64,000 bases of DNA from Hydractinia symbiolongicarpus (Eukaryota > Cnidaria > Hydrozoa > Anthoathecata > Hydractiniidae), in assembly GCF_029227915.1 (NCBI RefSeq), contig NC_079876.1, positions 13,888,001-13,952,000 on the forward strand, read 5' to 3'. Positions within the stretch are counted from its first letter, which is position 1, and each line of letters starts with the position of its first letter. The notes under the pieces were generated by a model that saw nothing but the letters and a program-made list of their open reading frames with translations, was not told where the DNA came from and ran no database searches. Below are positions 13,864-36,990 of the stretch, one piece after another. The translations under genes and the position numbers were made by a program.

Positions 13864-14214
13864 TCATTGCATTTTGAAAATATCGATCTGAGGCTGAGTT
13901 TTGCCTTGTTTCCCCTGTTGGGTCTCTGGTATGATGTTTTGGGATTTATTTTTACTCCTGCTAAACATATACCAAACCCCGACACTTATCGCAAGTACAG
14001 CTATTGTTCCTACCCCACAAATGTGAACCAACTGTATGGAACTGGTCCCAGAAGAGGTTTTGGCTTCAGGCTCTACAGTAGCCTCTTGTTACTTCATTTC
14101 TTCCTTCCTCTTCTTCATCAGTGCCACCACCTTATGTCCCTGTGCAACCCTTCCCAGATTCTTTGGTGGTTTTGTAATGACTCTCTCCTCTTGTTTCTGA
14201 TCTTCTTCACTCAT
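13864..14214 (-). pseudogene. Small basic membrane-anchored Polinton protein, with in-frame stop
   Basis: The frame from ATG 14214 to TGA 13864 is 117 codons with one internal TAA at codon 42. The N-terminal half is basic (KNLGRVAQGHKVVALMKKRK). After the stop comes an acidic linker, a single membrane segment (VHICGVGTIAVLAISVGVWY) and a polar tail. A lysine-rich 'NxGRVxxG' block followed by one transmembrane helix is a layout seen in several Polinton small proteins, possibly minor virion components. The TAA needs only one base change from CAA (Gln), so a recent inactivation is likely. An acidic 23-codon frame (14224-14292) lies directly upstream. Confidence 0.5.
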
Positions 14215-14380
14215 TTTATTATTATAATACGGTCTCCGCCTCTTCTGCCTCCTCCACCTCCTTCCCCGCGTTCTCTTTCTTCTTGCTCATATACCGAGCC
14301 GTGTAAGACAGGACCAGGAGCGGTGAAAGACATCTGGCGATGGTGCAGTACACCAGGATCCCAAGATTTGTCATAGAGTC

Positions 14381-14723
14381 TCAGATTATAGGGTCTTCTT
14401 CGATATCCTTTCTCATTTCTACGACATTGTCGATATCCACAAAGTTGCCAATCATGTTTGCATACAAATTGACCACGTGAGTAGACAGTGCTTTTGCCAT
14501 CTTTTCTCCCTTTTCCGGAGCTCGCGTTGTACGTACTCGGTATGGATCTTTTCTACCGCCTCCTCTGGGGCCTTGTCGACCCTTCGGTGCATTTTTTGGG
14601 AAGGAGTTGTCCTTTACCTTTGCGTAGGGCCTCCATTAAAATTTGGCGTTTATCGATATGTTTCTCTATCTGTTCATATCCTGTAGAGGCATTGTCAAAG
14701 GCTTGTGCAATATCAGACGACAT
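14381..14723 (-). pseudogene. Hypothetical Polinton protein before polB, frameshifted
   Basis: ATG 14723 opens MSSDIAQAFDNASTGYEQIE followed by a charged helix (KHIDKRQILMEALRKGKGQL). Beyond a frameshift about 14555-14590 the colinear frame reads EKMAKALSTHVVNLYANMIG and NFVDIDNVVEMRKDIEEDPI, stop at 14381. Together it would be a helical protein of about 113 residues. It is not recognised. It lies immediately downstream of the polymerase on the same strand. Confidence 0.4.
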
Positions 14724-14779
14724 CTTTATTATACGTCGATATCGAAGACGTACATAGGCAATCATGGCATACGGTAGAA

Positions 14780-17700
14780 CTATAGCAATATACAAACACA
14801 CTTCCATTTATTTCCCTGTAGACGTTGTGCTTCAACATCCTGTGCGATATCCCTATAAAAGTTCTCCGTATATGGTACACAAAGCTGTCCGTCCATGTAG
14901 CAGAGCTGTATTTTGGAACCATATTTGGGTCGCATATAGTCGTAGTGGAGCTCGTACATGACTAGCTTCGACATGTCTAGGATGGCCTGTCCAATGTATA
15001 CCGGCTTATTCATCTTCACCTCGGTCTTGCCCATCTCTAAACCTACCAGGTTTTTGCTAAACCGGCTTCCACCCTCAAAATTTGGCTTCATTATGAGTTT
15101 CGTATACTTGTCCTCATTTGTGACCAATTCATGAGTTTGTAGAAGTCCTTCTCAAACTCGTTTTTGGCATTTGTTCTAAAATCGGTGTTGTGATCGATAT
15201 AGTCCTACAACTATGCCTTCTGGTTGAACCGGATGATTTATAGCGTCATTTAATGCCCTTATATGTACCACGTATTTCCGCTTGTCTTCTAAATTTGGTA
15301 CTAATTTCTCTACCCTTTGAACCGTCGTGCGCTCGGGTAAAAATGGTAGCTCGTTATGTTTATCATGTAGCCTCTTTAGGTAGTCAATATCTACCTCCAG
15401 GATATACCCATGCTTATTATCTTCAATGAGCTTCCCGACCCGCCTTTCTGTAAAGGCCTCAACGTTTGATACCCATTTAAAGCCATCTGTTGGGAGGTCT
15501 TGACGCATCGCCCAGTCGTACAGGTTGTTTGCATCGAGTACTGTAGGTATGATGGTCTCCCATGTACTTATTGTTAGCTTTGGCGTACCGGTGTACAGCC
15601 TGGGTTATACCTCCACGGATGCCTTTTTTGAACATGAGGAGCATGTCTGGGTCTGTAAGGAGCTCTAACCAAATTCCAGTAAATTTTAGTGCTGTCTTCC
15701 AGGCCAAGTCAGGTGCTGCAAACTGTGCAGGATCAAGGCTGTAGTTGTCCAAGCAGACGCCTCAAAACGTTTCAAACACGTCTGCCAATAGCAGGACGTC
15801 TGTTGTCAGGTACACATCCTGGCAGTCTCCCATGGAAACATCATCACCCTCTGGAGTAATACAATTCCATGCCTTTTTAGCGTATGATAATCTTCATCAC
15901 TGATCCCATTTATGTTTAGCATGCTGTAAAAGGCCTCCTTGGGGGTAACTCCACCTCCTCAAATCGCTGCCAGTTATCCATGTGTTCACATGGATAGACA
16001 CCCTTTCTGCGCATGAGCTAAAACGTGTCATCCTCAGTGAAAAACCAGCGGAGATTTTTACACTGCTCATCGTTGAGGTTGCTTGCCAATTTGTCTACCG
16101 ATGATGCCATAGTTTGGTCATAGGTTTCTGTGGATAGGTATAATATAGTCTTTTTACCTTGTCCTCCAGATGGTTTAAGAACCTCGTCACCCAGTCCTCA
16201 CCCCTGTATACTGTTAGGGGGTCTGACACATCCCCATAGGCAAAGGTGCTATAGGTACACCAGCTAGACGGTACATGCTTGCTTAGCTTTTTAGTCCTTT
16301 TGAGCTTGGCATCTTCTACTGGGATGAGTAGACTCTCGAAGTCGGCATAGATAGCAAAGGGTACCTTGAAATGCTGTTGGCCATTCCTATAGTATAGCTA
16401 TATTTCAGCCTCATTTGGCATCGTAATTTTAACAGTCTCGTGATCGGTGCAATATCTATAGTACTTGTCTCTTGATTCAACCGTGGGAAAAGCCTGTAGG
16501 CAGTTTAGACAGAAGTGCAATTTTGCCGTATTTTTCGAGGTATCACTACCTAGGAGCCGTGATAGGGATTTGACGGCTGTGTAGTGGGTCTTTTTGTTAT
16601 CTGTTATAAGCAACAGATTAACCTGCTTGTTGCGCCTAATGTTGTACTCGGATCGACGTCGGATGTTGATCTTCTTCCCCATTACGTACAACATATTTAC
16701 CGCAATGTCAGGGTTATTATTTTTAAACCTGGAAATGTCCTTGATGCTTGTAAGGAACTCTATACCATCCCAATTGTAGTGGTTTATATAAAGTTTCAGC
16801 TTGGTGATTCTTTGTGGATCTCTTTCAATCTCCATATGATATAGACCACCGTTGATGCCCCACTTGAAACACTCCTCAACATCATTTTTCGGGTCAATAA
16901 TGGCCTTCTTAGAGGCTATCCACTTAGGTGCTTGTGTATACGATGAACCCCTTGTTAGACTTAATTTGTGGAAGTCTGCATCAAGGTATAGTATTCTACT
17001 AATTGTAAAACCACTTTGGGGGTAGTGTTGGATGTTCCACACCTGTTTTGATTTGGGCAAACATCCTATCCAGCAGGTCATCTACGTTGCTACCCTGGAA
17101 TACTGAGGCCATATTACTATGGAAGACCTTCTTCACCTCAATGTACTCATCGTTGGCGCCCTCTATATTTGACGGCTTCTTCCACATAATCCATAGTTAC
17201 AGCTGTACCGCATAGTGACAGCTGACCCCTTCACCTGCCCTTCAACCAAGGTTTTCACGTCTGGTCGCACTATCCCTATATACACGTCAACATCGGCCCC
17301 TCCTATACCGGGAATGCGGAAACTTCGGAACGTTCTGTGGAGAGCATGCTAATGTTATTGAGGTGTGAAATCTTGCCCCGGCTGTTCATATAGATAGTCT
17401 TCCTCGGCCTCTTTTTCCACCTCTTCATGTAGTGTAGGTTTTGTCTTGGCTGTCCCATTATAGAGATTCATCACCGTGCGTTTAAGGGTGGCATATGTAC
17501 TCTTGACACCCTCTTTTATAGGTTTGAGGACAGCATCTACAAGCAAATTATAAAATCCCTTAATTCCATCAATTACAATGGAACGATTTTTCGACAACTC
17601 CTGTTCCCAAAAATTTCCATGGCCTCTGGCGTTCTTAGTATAGTTACGGGCCTTACCGGCTTTCGTTATCCATCACTTCTGACCGGTCTCTGTGGTACCC

Positions 17701-17865
17701 TTTTAGGTGGCCTCCAAGCATACTACGGTACGTCCACCGTTGTTTTAACTGGAAGTCTTTTAGGTGGCCTCGGTGGGTATTGTGATACATTCTCCAATAG
17801 TGTAACCAATTCAGCCTTGCGTAGCTTATAATACCCCATAAGTCCACGGCTTTTGGCTTCATCAC
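14780..17865 (-). pseudogene. polB: Protein-primed DNA polymerase B of the Polinton, multiply broken
   Basis: The gene can be followed on the reverse strand from ATG 17865 (MMKPKAVDLWGIISYARLNW) to about 14780 through at least six frames. The N-terminal extension ends near 17000. The block 16398-17081 contains WGINGGLYHMEIERDPQRIT and a cysteine motif (HFCLNCLQAF). A 3'-5' exonuclease motif (YLTTDVLLLADVF, about 15778-15815) and polymerase motif A (LDANNLYDW, about 15515-15540) are visible. So are the AKANNKYM/FKKGIRGGITQAVHRY block (15560-15640) and a thumb-side block with FSKNLVGLEMGKTEV. Motif B is lost by an internal deletion near 15130-15170, and the motif C aspartates are replaced (YMDGQLC). 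Such polymerases replicate the linear element from a terminal protein. This copy cannot work. Confidence 0.85.
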
Positions 17866-18011
17866 ATAAATGTATTCATTCTTTATTATATAGAATTTTC
17901 ACTTTGTCGGAAGATATTATAACGGTCAAAAATACCAACGCGGTTATTTTCCTTTTAACTGCGCATGCGTTGATTTTCATCACTTTTTAGGGAATTCCCG
18001 TACTCATGTTT

Positions 18012-18547: not shown

Positions 18548-18579
<32 letters not shown>

Positions 18580-19067
18580 GCGTATGAAATTATAATGGTC
18601 CGTGATTCTATGTGCGATTATCTTACACCCTAAACACATTAAATACTTTACATGTTCCAATTTTTTAAAAAAGAACCATTTTTAAGGAACTTGGTGTTCT
18701 TTAACAACTTATTAAAACATTGTTATAAAAGCGGAATGTATTGTTCTATTGTTACTCACAAGACAAGAACGTGTCGTTCCCATAGGGAATTTGATGGAAT
18801 TTATGTGACGGTATATATCGTTCCACTCTATTTGTTCCGTTGAATTCTTTTATATATCATAACGATAATATATGCGAAATGATTATCTTGAGGAATAGTT
18901 ATTTAATTATGAATACTCTGCAGTCTAATTTATATTGTGCCACTTGAAATAATTCCGTTTTCGCTGCTACCTTAACTCTGCTATGGAGAGCGTCCTTCAT
19001 TATAAAAAGGAATTGTTTTAATGAGAAGTTTCTCAACTAATACTTTGTATACGAAGTAAAGTATAAG
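18235..19067. other. Non-coding spacer between the Polinton and the recombinase gene
   Basis: AT-rich, with a short (ATT)n run at 18547-18575. Its right end may hold a non-coding first exon: a donor (AAG followed by GTAAGT) lies at 19068 and pairs well with an acceptor (TTTCTAG) at 19202, 20 bp before the next gene's ATG. Confidence 0.4.
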
Positions 19068-19222
19068 GTAAGTTGTTCAAACTTTAAATTTATAGTTAAT
19101 AGGATTCTTTTTTTATTCAAATGAATTCTTTTTTTTATCCTACTTTCTATGCTTTGTTAAAAACTAATATTGTTATAAACTTTCTATAAATTTTGTTTCT
19201 AGAGAACTTTAAAGAAATCGGA

Positions 19223-20869
19223 ATGACAAAACGAGTCTTGCAAAAGCCTGCGTGGAAAGAGGCATTGGGAGCCTCAATGAGATCGAAAAGGCTTAAGTTA
19301 ATGCCTGATAAAGATAACCGCTTTTGTTGTCCTGTGGCTGATTGTGACAGCGAGTCGTATGGAAGTAAAAGAGGGTGTAGAAAACATGTCTATAACCGTC
19401 ATGGATGGTTTTATTATTTCGATAAAAGACCGAATATCGACGAAGTACTTCCCCACTTCAGTACGAGAAATCGCATAAAAGATCCCCAAAGAAAGCGCGC
19501 CTCCACATTTTCAATGCCGTCTTTTGCTAAAACATGTAATTTGGCAGTTGCATTTAGGACATGGTTAAAAAGTCCAGGTGGTGGTGGTAAAGATCATTCT
19601 CAGGCCGATCAAATAACTTGTAAAGTTTTAAAGTATGCCAAATATTGCTGCGAGGATTCTCCTTCGGTATGGGAAGTACCATTCCCTGTTATCGACTACT
19701 GTGTTGGCTCTATTAATATGCTTTCTGATTTCGTAGATTTTTTGAGAGACCAATGGAAGGTTGGCTTCTCAGGAATAATTGGCTACATGAATGCTATTGG
19801 GCACATGCTTGATTACAGACGAAGCACAGGTACGACTGAAAAAAATTTGTCGGTATTTGTTGCTGCAGAGATTTATTTGCACCGTGTTAAGAAATTCCTC
19901 CTTCGTAAAATGAAAGCTGAATGGAAGTGTATCTTAAGTGTTGAATATCTAAACAGTATAGACTGTTGGGCGACACTATATGATTTACAAAAGGTGATAC
20001 CATACCATAGTGAAAAATATAAACAAATTGTGTTAAATGCTAAAAACGCAAGTGCATGTGTCGCAGCACACGATTTATCATTTTCGACTTCCTTCATAGT
20101 AGCTGTATTATTTTTAATGGTGAAGGCTTCAAGACCCATGACGTATCAAACTCTTACAGTAACAATGATTAAAGGCGTGAAAGAGGATGGTTTTATAGAT
20201 CAGAATGTCTTTAAAACTGCGGAGAAATACGGATTTGACTCTCTTTATTTTTCCATAGATGTACTCACACTAATAAACGAATACATTGACAATGTACGAC
20301 GAAGATTGAACCCCACCAACGATTATCTACTAGTGTGTCGAAATGGTAAGCAGTTGACGCGTATTTCGGACGTATTCGGTAGAATTGTTTATCAAGCAAT
20401 TGGTAAGTATATAAATCCTACACGATATAGGCAAATCATCGAAACCGAAAGTGTTGCACACTTAGAAACAAAAGAACAAGCAATTCTTTCTCAAGATCAA
20501 AAACACACGTCGCAGGTAGCTAAAGTTCATTACCAGAAGACTGAATCGCGCAATATAGCTGCAAAAGCCAGGTTATGTATGGATAAATTACGAGATCAAA
20601 CAACGTGTACTTTAACTGTAAGCGAAATCAATAGTAACACCAAAAATGTGAAAACGTCTGGAAGTACTTTGGAACACGAAACACCTGTTTAAACGAGACA
20701 GAAAAAAGTTAGTTTTAGTGCCATGGAGGACAAGTTTTTACAAGCTGGGCTACAAAAATATGGCAATGCAAAATGGACTTCCATTCTCGCAGATCCTAAC
20801 TACTCCTTTCATTGTAGCCGTAAAGCTAGTACATTGGCGGTTAGAGCGAAGACAAAACAATTTATATAA
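19223..20869 (+). CDS. Tyrosine-recombinase-like protein with Myb/TRF-like tail after an in-frame TAA
   Basis: ATG 19223 follows a probable acceptor at 19202, and the first frame runs 489 codons to TAA 20690. Near the N-terminus CCPVADCDSESYGSKRGCRK and VYNRH resemble a C2H2-like zinc finger (residues about 35-60). The C-terminal half looks like a tyrosine recombinase: an Arg in KASRPMTYQ, then YINPTRYRQIIETES, and DQKHTSQVAKVHYQK, which offer the R...(H/K)xxR...H...Y pattern of Crypton-like enzymes that cut and rejoin DNA. Beyond the TAA the same frame stays open for 58 more codons. It encodes MEDKFLQAGLQKYGNAKWTS followed by ILADPNYSFHCSR, a Myb/SANT domain of the telobox/TRF type, ending at TAA 20869. 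So either the stop is a recent mutation or read-through occurs. Catalytic residues are assigned by eye. Confidence 0.6.
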
Positions 20870-20907
20870 GTTTAAATTGTATTTATAATAAAAATAACTT
20901 TGTAAAT

Positions 20908-21270
20908 TTACAAAGATTTTTGAAAACCAGAATATTTAAATAGTCTTTTAACTTTGTTACAGTCAAAACCGGCGTACACATAAAGGCTTTTTTTCCTCTT
21001 ACGATTTGGCCAATAATCTGGTGTATTAAGTACCCTCGTGTGTGAAGGCGGTTCGCAAAAACTTGGTTCTCCCTTCAAAGCCGCTATCGGTATAGTTAGG
21101 AAAACTTCATCATCTGATAGGCAAACAATATTTTTTTCCACGGAAATTGCCAGCGTTGAACAGGAATGTGAGAACGGTAAAACCTCCTTAGATGCTGAGC
21201 ATTCGTTATCCGAAACGTTTACCACAACTGCCTCTTCATTCACCATTTTAGCGTACACATAAGCGTCCAC
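20908..21270 (-). CDS. Small protein with SUMO-interaction-like motifs
   Basis: The intact 120-residue ORF converges on the recombinase gene and starts 0.1 kb from the first iteron array. Two hydrophobic-then-acidic motifs, VVVNVSDNE (residues about 16-24) and NIVCLSDDE (about 47-55), fit SUMO-interacting motifs. The C-terminal third is basic (PNRKRKKSLYVYAGFDC, NKVKRLFKY). The helicase gene of the same cluster ends with the same type of motif. The protein is not otherwise recognised. SUMO binding is an inference from the motifs. Confidence 0.45.
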   Translation of the reverse strand: MDAYVYAKMVNEEAVVVNVSDNECSASKEVLPFSHSCSTLAISVEKNIVCLSDDEVFLTIPIAALKGEPSFCEPPSHTRVLNTPDYWPNRKRKKSLYVYAGFDCNKVKRLFKYSGFQKSL

Positions 21271-21380
21271 ACAATTTAGGTGAAACTTACACGCTGTAAG
21301 CCTTTAAGTATGCAAATAATGGCGCAAATGCGACATTCATTAAACGCACACTTATCCCCATTCCTACTTAAAATGACTAA

Positions 21381-22318
21381 AGTGATTCTTGTAACGCCTT
21401 GTAACGCATGGACGTGCTGATTGTAACGCCTTGTAACACGTTGTAACGCTTTGTAACCTATTTCCATGAAAAAATGACTGTGAAATTTTTGGAAATGGCT
21501 AGAGTGATTCTTGTAACGCCTTGTAACGCATGGACGTGCTGATTGTAACGCCTTGTAACACGTTGTAACGCTTTGTAACCTATTTCCATGAAAAAATGAC
21601 TGTGAAATTTTTGGAAATGGCTAGAGTGATTCTTGTAACGCCTTGTAACGCATGGACGTGCTGATTGTAACGCCTTGTAACACGTTGTAACGCTTTGTAA
21701 CCTATTTCCATGAAAAAATGACTGTGAAATTTTTGGAAATGGCTAGAGTGATTCTTGTAACGCCTTGTAACGCATGGACGTGCTGATTGTAACGCCTTGT
21801 AACACGTTGTAACGCTTTGTAACCTATTTCCATGAAAAAATGACTGTGAAATTTTTGGAAATGGCTAGAGTGATTCTTGTAACGCCTTGTAACGCATGGA
21901 CGTGCTGATTGTAACGCCTTGTAACACGTTGTAACGCTTTGTAACCTATTTCCATGAAAAAATGACTGTGAAATTTTTGGAAATGGCTAGAGTGATTCTT
22001 GTAACGCCTTGTAACGCATGAACATGCTGATTGTAACGCCTTGTAACACGTTGTAACGCTTTGTAACCTATTTCCATGAAAAAATGACTGTGAAATTTTT
22101 GGAAATGGCTAGAGTGATTCTTGTAACGCCTTGTAACGCATGGACGTGCTGATTGTAACGCCTTGTAACACGTTGTAACGCTTTGTAACCTATTTCCATG
22201 AAAAAAATGACTGTGAAATTTTTGGAAATGGCTAGAGTGATTCTTGTAACGCCTTGTAACGCATGGACATGCTGATTGTAACGCCTTGTAACACGTTGTA
22301 ACGCTTTGTAACCTATTT
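21381..22318 (+). repeat. Iteron array 1: about 8 copies of a 121-bp unit
   Basis: The 121-122-bp unit is repeated nearly identically, starting at about 21381, 21503, 21624, 21745, 21866, 21988, 22109 and 22231. Each unit has six TTGTAAC words (GTTACAA on the other strand). Start-to-start distances are 10, 22, 10, 10 and 10 bp, followed by an AT-rich spacer containing ATGAAAAAATGACTGTG. It lies between the 3' end of the helicase gene and the start of the small reverse gene. The words recur every helical turn, as in binding sites for oligomerising proteins. Confidence 0.95.
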
Positions 22319-22406
22319 CTGTAGAGAAAACCGCTTTTCGCATGTCACTTTAGAAAAGGAGTATGTGGTGGGATATGAGGGAAGGAAAACGCAAAAAAGT
22401 TTTTTT

Positions 22407-25400
22407 TTAATTGTCTTCTTCGTCCGAACTAATGCAGATAACATCACAATCGAGAGAAGTGGTTGAATTATCTGCGGAAAATAGCTCTAATTTTACTGAA
22501 GAAATTTCAGGAACACTTTCATCATCTGACACGAGGTCTATAAAAGCAGTACTGTTATTTGCTGGACAAAACGGCATATATTCTTGCTTAACAGTGGAAA
22601 CAGGTTTCGTCGACTGAGCATTGATTTCATGTTCTTCTGTTTCTTCTTCTTCCCTATGACCTTCCTCCTCTTCGTTTGTTTCCTCTTCTTCTTCCTCGTT
22701 CTCTTCGCGGTCGTGGCTACTACCTTCTCCTTCGTCTTCGTCTTGCTCAATTAGTTGTGCCCAATCAGGGTAGAGCTCCTTCATTTCTTTCGTCGGGAAG
22801 CAATCGCGGCAGGAGTTTGTAGCAAGCAACCACGTGTCGTAGAACGTGTCACTACCCTGCCAGTTGATCCTTTTACGGCGTTTGAATGCTACCAAGGTCT
22901 CATCGTTATTAATTAATGGGCAGATTTCCTCCCATGCCCCAGCGGCTATCTCGTACATTTTGCGCATATATTCAGCACTGTGTAACTTGTTTTCTATGTC
23001 AAACAGTTCATGATCAAAGTTAAGCGCATGGTACAAAATGCCATCCCTATCGTCGGCCGCAATAATGGCATAGTCGATAGCCTCTTGCGGAACTGCATTC
23101 TCAATCTGAACTCGTGTGCTTAGACAACTGCTAGATGCTTCCAATGTTTGCTCTTCGTCCAAGAAGACCGACGGATCGCAATCAACGTCGTTGTACACAG
23201 CGCCTACTTGATTTTTCTTCGCAACATTGGTTTCGCTGGTGAAAAGCGAGATGTCTTTCAACTGGCTGGCAACGTACACAAATACTTCCATGCAGTGCAT
23301 TCTCATCCACTCTACGGGAAAAAAGTCATTACTTATTTTTATGCATATTGATTTACACCATTGTTATCATTTATTCTCATGAGATACTTACTTGTTATGC
23401 TATTGTCCTTCACTCGAAGTGTCTTAGTTTCGAAAACTTCAAGACGACGCAGGATAGCCTCACCATCTACACCATTTCCGAAGTCCGGCATTATATTAGT
23501 TGTTATAAAAAAACCCGAATTGTATTGAAAACGGGCCGGTTCTTTGTGTTTTTGCGGGATCATAACCAAGCCGCCTATAAGAGAAAGTGGTATCCCATCT
23601 GCACATTGCCACATTTTATTCAAAGTAAATGTTCATGTACTGCATCGACATCGACTTACCTTGCAATATTCTTTTTGCATCTTCACAACATAGACTGTCG
23701 CTAGTCCATTCATCCATAAATACGACTTGTGTATTTCTATTTATCAGGTGGCCTGAGAATCGACCATCCCGAACCACGCCAGCAATGTACATTTCTGGAA
23801 TAATGCCTAAAAGGACAAATGTATGTCAGTAAGTGCCGTCTAAAAGTCAGAAGTTTTCACGAACTTTATTTAATTACCTTGAAATGGAGCAAACCAACTA
23901 GTCTTTCCACTATCAGGAGGACCTACCAGCAACAATTTCTTTTCTTTCATGGGATACTGACCGGCGAGCAAAATTTGGTACCATTTTTGATAAAAACGCA
24001 ACCGCACATTTCTATCTGGGAAGCTATTTTCGACACCTACAAATGTAGTTCAGTGCACCTTTTTTAGAACTACGTTACAACAAGTTACAATACGTTACAA
24101 CACGTTAAAAGAAAAAGAGCCAACATTTTCACTGAAAATGCGTTACAACAAGTTACAATACGTTACATCACGTTACAACTACCACCTTGATATGTTACAA
24201 CGCGTTAAAAGAAAAAAAACACATTTTCTTCACTGACAATGCGTTATAACAAGTTACAATACGTTACAACACGTTACAACTACCACCTTGATATGTTACA
24301 ACGCGTTAAAAGATAAAAACATTTTCTTCACTGACAATGCGTTACAACAAGTTACAATACGTTACAACACGTTACAACTACCACCTTGATATGTTACAAC
24401 GCGTTAAAAGATAAAAAAAAACATTTTCTTCACTGACAATGCGTTACAACAAGTTACAATACGTTACATCACGTTACAACTACCACCTTGATATGTTACA
24501 ACACGTTAAAAGATAAAAAAAAACATTTTCTTCACTGACAATGCGTTACAACAAGTTACAATACGTTACATCACGTTACAACTACCACCTTGATATGTTA
24601 CAACACGTTAAAAGATAAAAAAAAACATTTTCTTCACTGACAATGCGTTACAACAAGTTACAATACGTTACAACACGTTACAACTACCACCTTGATATGT
24701 TACAACGCGTTAAAAGATAAAAAAAACATTTTCTTCACTGACAATGCGTTACAACAAGTTACAATACGTTACAACACGTTACAACTACCACCTTGATATG
24801 TTACAACGCGTTAAAAGATAAAAAAAAACATTTTCTTCACTGACAATGCGTTACAACAAGTTACAATACGTTACAACACGTTACAACTACCACCTTGATA
24901 TGTTACAACGCGTTAAAAGATAAAAAAAAACATTTTCTTCACTGACAATGCGTTACAACAAGTTACAACACGTTACAACACGTTACAACTACCACCTTGA
25001 TATGTTACAACGCGTTAAAAGATAAAAAAAAACATTTTCTTCACTGACAATGCGTTACAAGTTACAATACGTTACAACACGTTACAACTACCACCTTGAT
25101 ATGTTACAACGCGTTAAAAGATGAAAAAAAACATTTTTTTCACTGACAATGCGTTACAACAAGTTACAATACGTTACAACACGTTACAACTACCACCTTG
25201 ATATGTTACAACGCGTTAAAAGATAAAAAAAAAACATTTTCTTCACTGACAATGCGTTACAACAAGTTACAATACGTTACAACACGTTACAACTACCACC
25301 TTGATATGTTACAACGCGTTAAAAGATAAAAAAAAACATTTTTTTCACTGAAAATGCGTTACAACAAGTTACAATACGTTACAACACGTTACAACTACCA

Positions 25401-26637
25401 CCTTGATATGTTACAACGCGTTAAAAGAAAAAAAACACATTTTCTTAACGCGTTAAAAGAAAAGTAAAAACAATTACCTTCTATAAATGGCTTTGGTTCG
25501 GGATTTTTTTCCTCACGATGAAAGTACCGTACGAATGCTCGGGGAGATCCCTTTAAATTTGGCTTGACATCGAAACATTTTTTGGCGATGTTATAACAAA
25601 CTCCATTTGGCAAGCATTCAATGTAATTGTAATCCAGAGTTATTTGATCAATTATTTGACACTCGCCGTCCGACAGCAAAAATACCAACTCTCGTAAATT
25701 TGGCGTAATTTCGTTGGCGATTGCTTTGTTTTTCAACGAGCGATAGAGATAGCTTTTCACCGAACAACAGTAAACGTATGTGTATCTGCTTTCTCCTATT
25801 TTTTTGTATACACCTCCATTGCACAGTCCAAAGCTATTCCTCTCCATCATCCTTCGAACTATATCCACGGATTGACAAAGTTTGTTAGTTGGCTTAACGG
25901 GAATAGTTACTTCTGTGCCTATGCGTGTAACAATGTAAAAACATGTTTTAACTTCTACAAAAAACTTGTCTTATTATTGGAGAAGTAAGTAAATTTGTTC
26001 GTGGCAACTTACCTTCCGATTTATCAATTACTTTTAAATCAAGCGATGTAAATCTGATTTCGGATAAACCACGAATTACATCTTGATATACCTCTTTATC
26101 AATATTTTTTGTTAGAATTAACTGACAGGGTTTCATCGAGTACTGTTCGCTTTCCATTACAGCAACGTGGTCAAGTTGAACACCTTCATCTCTAGCTGCA
26201 CTCCTAATCATTGTGCGATGGGATATCTCAACTATCCGTTTTGCTTCTTCCCTATTGTGGTCTTTCAAGACTTGGTATAACGATCCTGAGAATGCTTGCA
26301 ATGCACTGGTTTTGCCTACAAATATCAAATGTGGCGTAAAATATTCGAAAAACATTGACAGTATTTCAAGTACTAAAAGGTTCAAGTATTTACCTCTTGT
26401 CTGTATAGCATTGCACGTTGTTAAATTCAACCCGGCTTGCATAAAAGACTTCGACAAATTTGTTTCAAATTGACTTAAGGTACAGTTTGGCAAGTCGCAC
26501 GCGATCCAGAAAGAAATGCCAGGAAATGTTTCAGGCGCATTTGCGCCGTTTCTGTTATCACCTTCACTGCTAGAGTCGGCTCCTTCTTCTTCCTCCCCTT
26601 CATTCCTCATCGACTTTCTCTTACGAGGTCTGGCCAT
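22407..26637 (-). CDS. SF3-type helicase, seven exons, 793 residues
   Basis: Exons by splice signals (reverse strand): 26394-26637, 26013-26315, 25478-25918, 23878-24036, 23660-23806, 23392-23574, 22407-23311. All six introns are GT/AG and phase 1, and the joined frame is open for 794 codons including the stop. The start is MARPRKRKSMR with an acidic patch. An upstream in-frame ATG (26853) is an alternative. Exons 4-6 encode a superfamily 3 helicase core: Walker A (LLLVGPPDSGKTS, about residue 365), Walker B (VVFMDEW, about 410) and motif C (GFFITTN, about 452), as in parvovirus NS1 or papillomavirus E1-type initiators that unwind origins. No HUH nuclease motif is seen. The last exon has a Glu-rich stretch and two SUMO-interaction-like motifs (FIDLVSDDE, DVICISSDEED). 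Intron 3 (1441 bp) is filled by iteron array 2. Cellular role unknown. Confidence 0.8.
24067..25447 (+). repeat. Iteron array 2: about 13 copies of a 102-bp unit inside helicase intron 3
   Basis: Each unit holds GTTACAA words at start-to-start spacings of 10, 10, 10, 22 and 10 bp. The sixth word is degenerate (GTTAAAA), and the A-rich spacer ends in TTCACTGACAATGC. The block ACTACCACCTTGATAT occurs 13 times. Unit length is about 102 bp with small changes in the A-run. Some units have TACATCACG instead of TACAACACG, and one has lost ten bases near 25055. Except for the GTTACAA words, the sequence is unrelated to array 1. Confidence 0.95.
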
Positions 26638-26913
26638 ATAGGTAATACAAGAAAAAAAACAGGATACTTGTTCGTTGCTAAGCAATATGTTCTCCATCTG
26701 CATTCTCTTGCCCCAAATGACCTCGCGGGCATCAACATCACTTCCCCACATCGCACGAACGGCTACTACCTGATATTTTCTTATTACCGGTTGGACGATG
26801 CATGCCTTCAGGGCGCGTTTCAAAACTTCACTTCGCAGTTGCCTGTTAGCCATGTTCTGCTAAGTAATACAAACGAATGCTGTAGCGGAACAAAAATAAT
26901 CTCCTATGGTTAT

Positions 26914-27346
<433 letters not shown>

Positions 27347-28563: not shown

Positions 28564-31255
28564 GATCTTATAAGGGGTAATGTGGATTTTCCCAATAACA
28601 TGGCGCTTTCTTAACTGAGAAAAGACTTGGAAGGCTTAACTTTAAATTTTTTTACCTATAATTACAAGACATTAAATTTTCTACTTCGCTGTCACATGTG
28701 ATTACATTGGTTGTTTCTATATTTGAGTCTCTATATTTGAGTTGCATGCTATGAAATCTTAGGTATTAGGTTACATGGTTAAATTCATAGTCGTGAAGGG
28801 TGCTAATTGTTGCTAGCGACATCAGTATACATCCATTTTTCCAAAAATTACAATGAGGGATGAAGGGCAGAATTTTTTTTTCTCTGTTTAATGGAATTAT
28901 TATCACTATCATCATCATTAATTCTCGCAACGACGCTTCTATTATTTGTAACGGGTTTTTTAGAAGTTACTCATTCAACATTTTTTAAAATGTAACGTAA
29001 AATTCAACATTTTCAAAAAGTTTTAAATAAACACTCCTTAAAAGAGACGGGATTTGATTTATTACACGGGTGTCTATAGAAAAGATTGAAAATGAGGTGA
29101 CCGATAAGGAGTCTCAAATAAAAGGGAAGTGTTTACCAGAGGCGGTGCAGAATTGAAAAAAGTCAAAACTATTTGACAAAAAAACTGATGTTACTTTTGT
29201 CTTGATTATTCGAGTTTAACATCTGTTAGATAAGTAAGTAACCGCTACTTACGCTGGTGACGTAACTATACTGTTTTAATTTTAGATTCTCGACCAGATT
29301 ACCGACGTTGTTCGATATTGTTAATACAAGCTTTCAGAAATAAAAAGGTTTCGTCGTATTACTCTCGACGAAACGTCAATGTTACGATGGATTGTGTTAC
29401 CGTAAATTCTCTAATTTTCCGCGTGTTCTAATTAACGCGTGGCACCAATTTTTTTAGGAAAAATCGTAATTTATTTCCGTGTACTTATTAACGCGTAGCC
29501 GAAATTCAGAATAATTTATTTCCATCCAATTATTAACGCGCAGCCGAAATTCAGAATAGTTTATTTCCATTCAATTATTAACGCACAGCCGAAATTCAGA
29601 ATAATTTATTTCCATCCAATTATTAACGCGCAGCTGAAATTCAGAATAATTTATTTCCATCTAATTATTAACGCGCAGCCGAAATTCAGAATAATTTAAT
29701 TTGTGTCTAATTATTACGCGTAACCAAACCGTAACGATAAACATTTCCTGGTTGCAAAAAAACACTCAATAAGAGATTCTTTTTTATAAATTTCAACTTT
29801 CCAATTATCAACCCAGATATTTCTGGATATTTTACAAATCAGTTAAAAATGGATCATCATTATCGTCTTCTTCATCGTCAACACATTTTAAAGCCTTTTC
29901 CCTCGAAGTTTTTAATCCCCACAAATACAAGTTTTAACGTCCCGCAAACTTCCCTGTATTTATATAAATAAAATTTTTACGATTTGTTATTCTTACACAA
30001 GAAAATGCTTTCTGTAAAATATAAAATGTATTTTTCAGCAGGATAATTAATGCTTTACATTTTCTAAATGAAACATTGTTTTTCTCACGACACAAGAGTT
30101 TAAGAGAGTTGAGAACGAGACTAGTTGACTGTAACAAAACCACATGACTTTAAACATGCATCCATCCATGATACGAAAATACATCAAACAAAATTTGTTT
30201 CACAGTACACTTGCTAAAAATACGTTATTTTATGAGAACTATGAAATTTGGCTTCATGCTCAGATGTAATTTCTATAATTTTTCGCAAAGTAAACAAACT
30301 TGAAAAGCTACAACAATTGACTCTGCGAAAATTTCTTTGCATTGAAAGATATATTTCTTCATATTTGTTGTGAAAAGAATATCGGTACAAATTCATCCTT
30401 TCCATTCTCAAAATTTGTTTTTATTTCTCAACCACATCCAGCTTCCTTGTTTTTATTAGTTGATATACAAAAATAATAGTTTAAAAGGAAAATAACATGG
30501 ATTTATACTTACAAATTAAATTAATCCGTATGAAATAAATATATATATCAAATAAATACATAGAAATCGAATATACATAAAAAAATAATGTATGTACAAT
30601 AATAAAATAAATAATTCGAGCTGCAATTTTTTTTCTTCATCTAAAAAATAAAAGTTCATTAAAAATGTGAAAATTTTTCCCAAACATTAAACTCAAACAG
30701 ACTGGCGAAATTACACTCTCGAATAATTGATAAAACATTTTAAACTCCCAGAATTTTACGAAATTTCACTAAGAAATTATCTCACCTGGTGAAACGATTG
30801 TTATTTTTTCATATTAATTTCCTGAGACATTTATCTCCTCTTTCCATCCTATAAAAATATTTTAAAATATTTAAATATAAACTCGTAACATATAACTAGC
30901 TGTTTGATTGTTTATTCTCGTTTCATCTAGTTGATAGAGGTCTGGGTACGAAGTTTTATTTTACCTAGTATTCAAATTATTTTTTTATAACTACATGTTT
31001 TTGTTCAACATTCTATTTCATCTTTTTCATCTGTTTAAACCAAAAATATCACATCTAAATATTTAAAACTTTATTCATTAATTTAAATTATTTTTTGTTA
31101 AAATATTTTACTCCGCTCGAAAACTGATCATTCCTTCCTGTTTCTTTTATAATATTTATATATACATTTTTATTCCTTATTAGCAAGGTAACAAAAATGA
31201 TTAAATTAATTAAATAAATAAGATACAAAATTTACTCTTCTTTCTAATTTATTAA
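28564..31255. other. AT-rich non-coding
   Basis: Apart from the 45-bp satellite listed separately, only short chance frames and A/T-rich low-complexity sequence are seen. Confidence 0.5.
29425..29720. repeat. 45-bp satellite, about 6 copies
   Basis: The unit reads AATTATTAACGCGCAGCCGA followed by AATTCAGAATAATTTATTTC and CATCC. The edge copies are more diverged. The TTAACGCG core is the only GC-rich part of the unit. Confidence 0.85.
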
Positions 31256-36480: not shown

Positions 36481-36504
36481 TTTAGAAAAATTAACTCTCT
36501 TAAA

Positions 36505-36990
36505 TATTTAATACTCTAATTTAATACTCTAATTTAATACTCTAATTTAATACTGAATATTTAATACTCTAATTTAATACTAAATATTTAATACTCTAAT
36601 TTAATACTCTAATTTAATACTAAATATTTAATACTCTAATTTAATACTCTAATTTAATACTCTAATTCAATACTAAATATTTAATACTAAATATTTAATA
36701 CTCTAATTTAATACTCTAATTTAATACTCTAATTTAATACTAAATATTTAATACTAAATATTTAATACTCTAATTTAATACTCTAATTTAATACTAAATA
36801 TTTAATACTCTAATTTAATACTCTAATTTAATACTCTAATTTAATACTAAATATTTAATACTCTAATTTAATACTAAATATTTAATACTAAATATTTAAT
36901 ACTCTAATTTAATACTCTAATTTAATACTAAATATTTAATACTCTAATTTAATACTCTAATTTAATACTAAATATTTAATACTAAATATT
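36505..36990. repeat. 13/14-bp minisatellite
   Basis: About 35 copies alternate between CTAATTTAATACT (13 bp) and AAATATTTAATACT (14 bp). The order of the two unit types is irregular. It lies downstream of the last exon I can assign to the TIR gene, presumably in an intron. Confidence 0.95.

Follow-up and report, generated by a model that had tools for sequence, protein, structure and literature searches.

In this work, we have analysed two tandem arrays of the word GTTACAA in a 64,000-bp stretch of the Hydractinia symbiolongicarpus genome (C2:13888001-13952000, C numbers being contigs of the same assembly). This whole stretch is called the window, and positions are those of the window unless a contig is named. 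Comparison of the sequence with its copies suggests, with a probability that we put at about one half, that the arrays are iterons of a young Hydractinia transposon with a tyrosine recombinase, serving element-encoded proteins and most likely the replication of an excised circle. The working unit would be one module of about 69 bp, with six phased GTTACAA words beside an A/T-rich tract, on which six protein subunits or domains would sit side by side. Two such modules would be used in inverted orientation, one in intron 3 of an SF3 helicase gene and the other downstream of that gene.

21371-22319, minus strand (the strand showing GTTACAA): array 1, 8 units of 122-123 bp, six words each
24074-25446, plus strand (the strand showing GTTACAA): array 2, 14 word clusters with a 102-bp unit and the six-word layout

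The words follow each other at steps of 10, 10, 10, 22 and 10 bp in every unit of array 1, and array 2 has the same steps, with GTTAAAA as its sixth word. Twelve of the 14 clusters of array 2 span 98-103 bp, the exceptions being the last and the first, which is cut down to 68 bp and four words; in a few units one further word is one base off (GTTACAT, GTTATAA), and in one unit the first step is 7 bp. The initial annotation of this DNA had described the shared layout on opposite strands, the degenerate sixth word and about eight copies of array 1, as we find them. Its 121-bp unit for array 1 was off by one; its 102-bp unit for array 2 holds, and its count of about 13 copies there becomes 14, the first shortened.

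All six words lie on one face of the helix, as had been proposed: their offsets give a resultant of 0.94-0.97 at 10.3-10.6 bp per turn, compared with 0.74-0.93 when the long step is set to 20 bp and 0.49-0.71 when it is set to 25 bp. The phase lost over the three 10-bp steps is thus regained by the 22-bp step. Chance is rejected as the source of the pattern. GTTACAA occurs 118 times in the window against 16.0 expected (100 shuffles, maximum 24), and in the whole 481-Mb genome the triplet GTTACAA-N3-GTTACAA-N3-GTTACAA has 899 matches (424+475) against none for the reversed control pattern, so that the spacing is not equally common at random loci, which the initial annotation had named as something that would count against its reading. 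The 100 of these matches that were listed fall in three loci, the window and two further copies of one element; they are apparently in contig order and would then span C1 and C2 up to 18.27 Mb.

Outside the words, the arrays are not significantly alike, again in agreement with the initial annotation: 10 of 27 spacer bases are identical (shuffle P 0.10), and the likeness of the linkers has P 0.06-0.12. Since the spacers are not alike, we rejected the idea that one array arose from the other simply by a recent duplication; the two modules may or may not share an ancient origin. A tandem-repeat search (TRF) detected no array within the element besides these two, so both expansions struck the same module. 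Judged from the strands, the words of both arrays face outward, toward the nearer element end.

Other repeats were also noted. The window holds a 45-bp tandem repeat of 5.6 copies that includes TTAACGCGCAGCCGAAATTCAGAA (29467-29748) and a 13-bp tandem repeat, ATTTAATACTCTA, of about 36 copies (36501-36983). The triplet is also present in 36 stretches of viral contigs; one of these, the IMGVR contig 3300037400_000783 (L061, L065), has five matches, which form one group of three and one of two with 30-bp steps.

The mobile element and its recombinase

The arrays lie within a mobile element that is inserted in a TTA-type simple repeat.

18576-26909, about 8.3 kb, no strand: whole mobile element; two other copies share the stretch with the same end points, and the left end is found in 23 loci
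18548-18575, no strand: (ATT)n, target, at the left end
26910-27345, no strand: (TTA)n, target, at the right end
19223-20869, plus strand: tyrosine recombinase, 548 aa in intact copies
20908-21246, minus strand: small open reading frame (ORF), 112 aa, no homologue found, reality uncertain

The element begins with TATAGCGTATG and ends with CTCCTATGG followed by TTA, both ends lying within (ATT/TTA)n. The TTA is common to ends and target, and the inverted similarity of the ends, seen by eye, is weak; the ends thus have a short shared core and not long inverted repeats, and target duplications are not discernible inside (TTA)n. Two other whole copies (L031-L032 and L033-L035) match 18576-26909 with identical end points and end in (ATT/TTA)n as in the window, and in recombinase, helicase exons and small ORF they show 98.9-100% identity to the window. 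A host enhancer unrelated to a mobile element was ruled out, since the arrays move with the element copies.

A six-frame genome search with an intact recombinase (P0001) gave 56 matches, of which 21 extend over the complete protein, or lack just two of its residues, at >=97% identity; 16 of these are open and five, the window copy among them, contain stops. From the 56 matches we drew 30 loci with 1.5 kb on each side, some being pieces of one copy (e.g. L095/L099). The left end was located in 23 of the 30 (22 exactly, and L086 with a one-base variant). Seventeen of these left ends adjoin (ATT)n, five adjoin the right end of a further copy, and one (L090) has a single TTA beside it. The five head-to-tail junctions (L084 on C10, L087 on C9, and L081, L082 and L086, all three from a row of four copies on C4) read CTCCTATGG-TTA-TATAGCG in four cases, with TATTGCG in L086, and no bases intervene. 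Integration of circles next to a copy already in place, or of multimers, would be expected to leave such junctions. The row on C4 (C4:15236474-15262441) has four copies head to tail, among which the length of array 1 varies. In L088 (C2:18273300) about 2.3 kb is inserted at window position ~18902-18906, parting the left end from the gene. The copies are nearly identical: 16 recombinase genes (L073-L088) differ from the reference L072 at 0-8 of 1644 positions. Their 22 distinct changes, nine of them silent against 27% expected at random, are too few for selection to be judged.

The recombinase has a zinc-finger-like Cys/His region at its N-terminus, then the catalytic region, and a TRF-like Myb domain at its C-terminus; the window copy is interrupted by an in-frame stop after the recombinase domain and before the Myb domain, and intact copies lie elsewhere. 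A near-identical database protein (P0002) is named from Hydractinia symbiolongicarpus. Among 695 relatives found, 120 were listed and 48 aligned, and the AlphaFold2 model from these 48 sequences has a mean predicted local distance difference test score (pLDDT) of 86.6. Searched with Foldseek, the model retrieved XerA and Cre first (probability 0.96-1.00), then the Myb domains of TRF1 and TRF2, with target template modelling (TM) scores of 0.67-0.91 over about 55 residues. R304, K331, R401/R403, H436 and Y437, which we take to be the tyrosine-recombinase catalytic set, are conserved in the alignment. From model and alignment, the element is predicted to encode a tyrosine recombinase that contains a TRF-like Myb fold. 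For the latter, a profile search with the recombinase also finds TRF1 (E 1.5e-5), and Pfam gives a Myb match at E <=0.1 for 41 of the 48 relatives, and for most of these also matches to the related CHD1/SLIDE models on the same stretch. The recognition helix of telobox proteins is VDLKDRWR; the element has STLAVRAK in its place. Taz1 is a TRF-like protein. Its binding sequence GGTTACAG, as given in the available text of the source, contains GTTACA, as does the array word (PMC6576747), which makes the Myb domain a good candidate binder.

Could the modules be accessory recombination sites? The Myb domain would then bind the words, and the inverted arrays would pair the ends or steer direction, in the manner of arm sites or recombinational enhancers. 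The fusion of the Myb domain to the recombinase, its match in most of the relatives, the resemblance of the word to the Taz1 site and the outward reading of the words in both arrays speak for such a use. However, the arrays lie 2.8 kb and 1.5 kb from the ends, one of them in an intron; no GTTACA was found near the element ends; and the window copy has its stop before the Myb domain, although this stop may postdate insertion. On balance we consider this explanation unlikely, if a serious one.

As for other contents of the element, a DDE transposon or retroelement was ruled out, no such Pfam match being present among the ORFs scanned; these gave no match to a capsid gene either, such as a DNA virus (Polinton, parvovirus, papillomavirus) would have, but the small ORF is without assignment, and a viral nature of the element is conceivable. 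Searches by protein confirmed no relatives in viral contigs and gave none in phage records. Outside the element and adjoining it (14000-18000, minus strand), broken frames resemble by eye a Polinton-type protein-primed DNA polymerase and other Polinton genes; one piece of this stretch (16398-17081) has no Pfam match.

The SF3 helicase gene

As the initial annotation had it, the arrays lie in and beside an SF3 helicase gene: array 2 in intron 3 and array 1 downstream. The gene has seven exons with GT-AG splice sites and an open frame of 885 aa.

26394-26853, minus strand: exon 1, N-terminus conserved in Clytia relatives, start codon 56 bp from the right end
26013-26315, minus strand: exon 2, from its splice sites
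25478-25954, minus strand: exon 3, from its splice sites
24037-25477, minus strand: intron 3, 1441 bp, nearly filled by array 2
23878-24036, minus strand: exon 4, Walker A (GPPDSGKTSW)
23660-23806, minus strand: exon 5, Walker B (VVFMDEW)
23392-23598, minus strand: exon 6, SF3 motif C (SGFFITTN)
22407-23311, minus strand: exon 7, acidic tail and stop

Intron 3 owes its length to array 2, the other five introns having 58-80 bp. On sequence grounds, the Walker A, Walker B and C motifs of SF3 helicases are recognisable in the product. Its 15 listed relatives (from the 7999 best candidates scored) include nine named from Clytia hemisphaerica and one from Hydractinia; those that cover the region keep the SF3 motifs, the N-terminus is common to several, and one is named SF3 helicase domain-containing protein. 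In profile searches no match exceeded the cut-off, those to the papillomavirus E1 and parvovirus NS1 helicases being sub-threshold; no origin-binding domain known to Pfam was recognised in the N-terminal part. Against solved structures, one search gave three matches at E 0.4 or worse and another none. The tail (22407-22640, minus strand) is very acidic and ends in VICISSDEE, which resembles, we assume, a SUMO-interacting motif; the small ORF has a similar IVCLSDDE.

The recombinase gene has a leader of about 650 bp. On a circle, the helicase start codon, 56 bp inside the right end, would come to face this leader, so that the two genes may share a promoter region there.

The place of the arrays, one in an intron and the other downstream of the gene, would also suit regulatory sites, i.e. 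an enhancer, a silencer or a copy-number sensor through which an element or host factor tunes helicase transcription or splicing. The number of iterons in a replicon can act by titration, which is in line with such a role, but the exact phased six-word layout at both sites exceeds what a typical enhancer needs, and we regard this explanation as quite unlikely.

Module variation and the proposed cycle

Exact six-word modules of array 1 number 2-9 in each of the 23 well-preserved loci (L072-L094), in a survey that reaches 1.5 kb beyond the recombinase match on each side, so that long arrays may be cut; in the remaining modules of these loci at least one word is changed, or the long step contains 11 inserted bases. 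Decayed copies have fewer modules: three, one with a 3-base loss (L095, the same locus as L099), two (L096) or one (L097), and none in the stretch covered in L098, L100 and L101. The rest of the L097 element (L102, 90-91% DNA identity) has one intron-3 module with two words damaged, one of them by a 1-base loss. In the old copy L103 a partial single module was seen by eye at the array-1 site, where the scripted scan for degenerate modules reported none; the same scan found no module in the more distant piece L104. One module per site is thus probably the older state, as judged for array 2 from one copy, and the arrays would be later amplifications. Copies of the young lineage have about 4-10 units in array 1 and at least 12 in array 2. 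Units of arrays 1 and 2 number 8 and 14 in the window, 10 and 12 in the C1 copy, and 8 and 19 in the 18-Mb copy of C2, the true number exceeding 19, since one piece counted spans two units and another three.

Such variation between near-identical copies, the one to three array-1 units of older copies and the flanking (TTA)n tracts, which also differ in length between copies, are what would be seen if one module per site were functional, if the arrays had grown passively as minisatellites, and if the layout were shared by common descent of the two modules. Against this stand two independent expansions exactly at the two modules, in an element with no other tandem array, and spacers that are no longer alike, so descent alone does not explain the kept spacing. 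We hold this explanation to be decidedly improbable.

We now return to the reading of the arrays as iterons. The retention of the same six phased words at two places, both of them amplified, has no easy explanation other than a protein complex that recognises the words. Replication is the likeliest use: it is not obvious what else an SF3 helicase would do in an element of this kind, and initiator origins are typically built of iterons with an A/T-rich tract alongside. Tandem words, an A/T-rich tract and an initiator-like gene are all present, the weak point being the AT contrast (linkers of 68% and 73% AT against 63% for the element as a whole). The initial annotation had likened the arrays to origin iterons, with enhancer or recombinase sites as other options, on the grounds of a phased layout at two unrelated sites in and beside the helicase gene. 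This reading is supported in part, namely by the layout itself, by its retention in all 23 well-preserved loci and by the A/T-rich linker of each unit; it had missed the transposon context, the intron position and the secondary expansion.

We propose that the recombinase joins the element ends and releases a circle, which would bring the helicase start next to the recombinase leader and might create a divergent promoter region. Element proteins would assemble on the modules and load the SF3 helicase, and the circle would be replicated and then use the short TTA core to reinsert itself in (TTA)n or next to a copy already present. The circle, its replication, the binder and selection for site number are all inferred. 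Candidate binders are the TRF-like Myb domain of the recombinase and the N-terminal part of the helicase, which matched no known domain; with the former, the helicase would not be the sole candidate. That six words agree in number with hexameric SF3 helicases is suggestive only. A fuller version, which we offer tentatively and are inclined to doubt, is that of an animal transposon living as a small replicating circle, in which a Cre/Xer-fold recombinase with a telomere-type Myb domain cooperates with the SF3 helicase. The two would share an address of six words phased on one DNA face, which would suit a complex of six subunits, and its amplification at two inverted origins would increase the copy number.

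Several observations weigh against the iteron reading. The arrays are distant from the element ends (1.5 and 2.8 kb), an intronic repeat can grow without selection, and several words are degenerate in some of the well-preserved copies. The lower variation of words than of spacers (0.7% versus 2.9% over 167 modules) comes mainly from two spacer columns and from modules picked for good words, with L095/L099 counted twice, and for these reasons is given little weight. In the C1 copy, exon 7 of the helicase gene has four gap positions relative to the window, so that this gene may be broken. The initial annotation had reckoned with arrays missing where the gene stays; this was found at most once, at the decayed locus L100/L101 (C3:18271891-18272936), where it is the recombinase that remains and the stretches covered have no GTTACAA. 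The XerA and Cre matches are weak overall (E 1e-3 to 6e-2, query TM 0.22-0.30, root-mean-square deviation 10-16 A), residues 331-334 and 429-437, with supposed catalytic residues, have pLDDT <50, and no recombinase profile was matched, either in Pfam or in the 25 of 43 PHROG families shown.

Comparison with known systems

In a search of the open literature (Repbase being outside its scope) we found no description of such an element. Cryptons, which have a circular intermediate, resemble it in using a tyrosine recombinase as recombination enzyme and in lacking terminal inverted repeats. Unlike Cryptons, the element has an SF3 helicase, phased iteron arrays and ends in (TTA)n, and no DUF3504/integrase Pfam match was found in its 48 recombinase relatives at E 0.1 (all 21 families). 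In the text of the Crypton paper available to us, short terminal direct repeats, presumed recombination substrates, are described in fungal and oomycete groups, none having been found in animal Cryptons, and helicase, Myb and microsatellite are not mentioned (PMC3212892). From its sequence, the element would be classed as a tyrosine-recombinase DNA transposon, Crypton-like in the broad sense, and homology to the DUF3504 lineage of Cryptons was not found.

The endogenous nimaviruses of crustaceans, by description only, are also similar: in the available text they have a recombinase with a C2H2 zinc-binding domain and insert into simple repeats (PMC10871703). They differ in size (300-360 kb for Pemonivirus versus 8 kb) and in target, those that bear a recombinase using (TAACC)n or 28S rDNA, and their tyrosine recombinases are described there as telomere-specific (PMC10871703).

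The telobox Myb proteins TRF1, TRF2 and Taz1 resemble the recombinase in Myb fold and sequence, and the Taz1 site, as far as its source is available, shares GTTACA; unlike them, the element has a different recognition helix and its Myb domain is fused to a recombinase. If our reading is right, the pairing of a TRF-like Myb domain with a word that looks like a telomere-repeat site suggests a source of the DNA addresses of such transposons.

The helicase resembles papillomavirus E1 and parvovirus NS1 in its SF3 motifs and sub-threshold profile matches, but Pfam recognises no known origin-binding domain in its N-terminal part and no capsid gene was seen among the ORFs scanned. In the phage satellite P4, two regions, ori and crr, carry the same initiator sites. 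P4, SaPI and PLE, according to the available text, integrate like the element and encode a replication initiator of their own, which in P4 and SaPI has helicase activity, and RepA of PLE binds iterons (PMC7145576). These satellites, likened here by description, differ in being bacterial and parasites of helper phages, with no known homology to the element. If the proposed cycle is true, the transposon has been active recently in an animal and may replicate extrachromosomally with its own helicase and origins, and the near-identity of its copies should make circles, binding and insertion directly testable in Hydractinia, which is a laboratory animal. It would join tyrosine-recombinase transposons with the replicons of small DNA viruses and with the phage satellites of bacteria.

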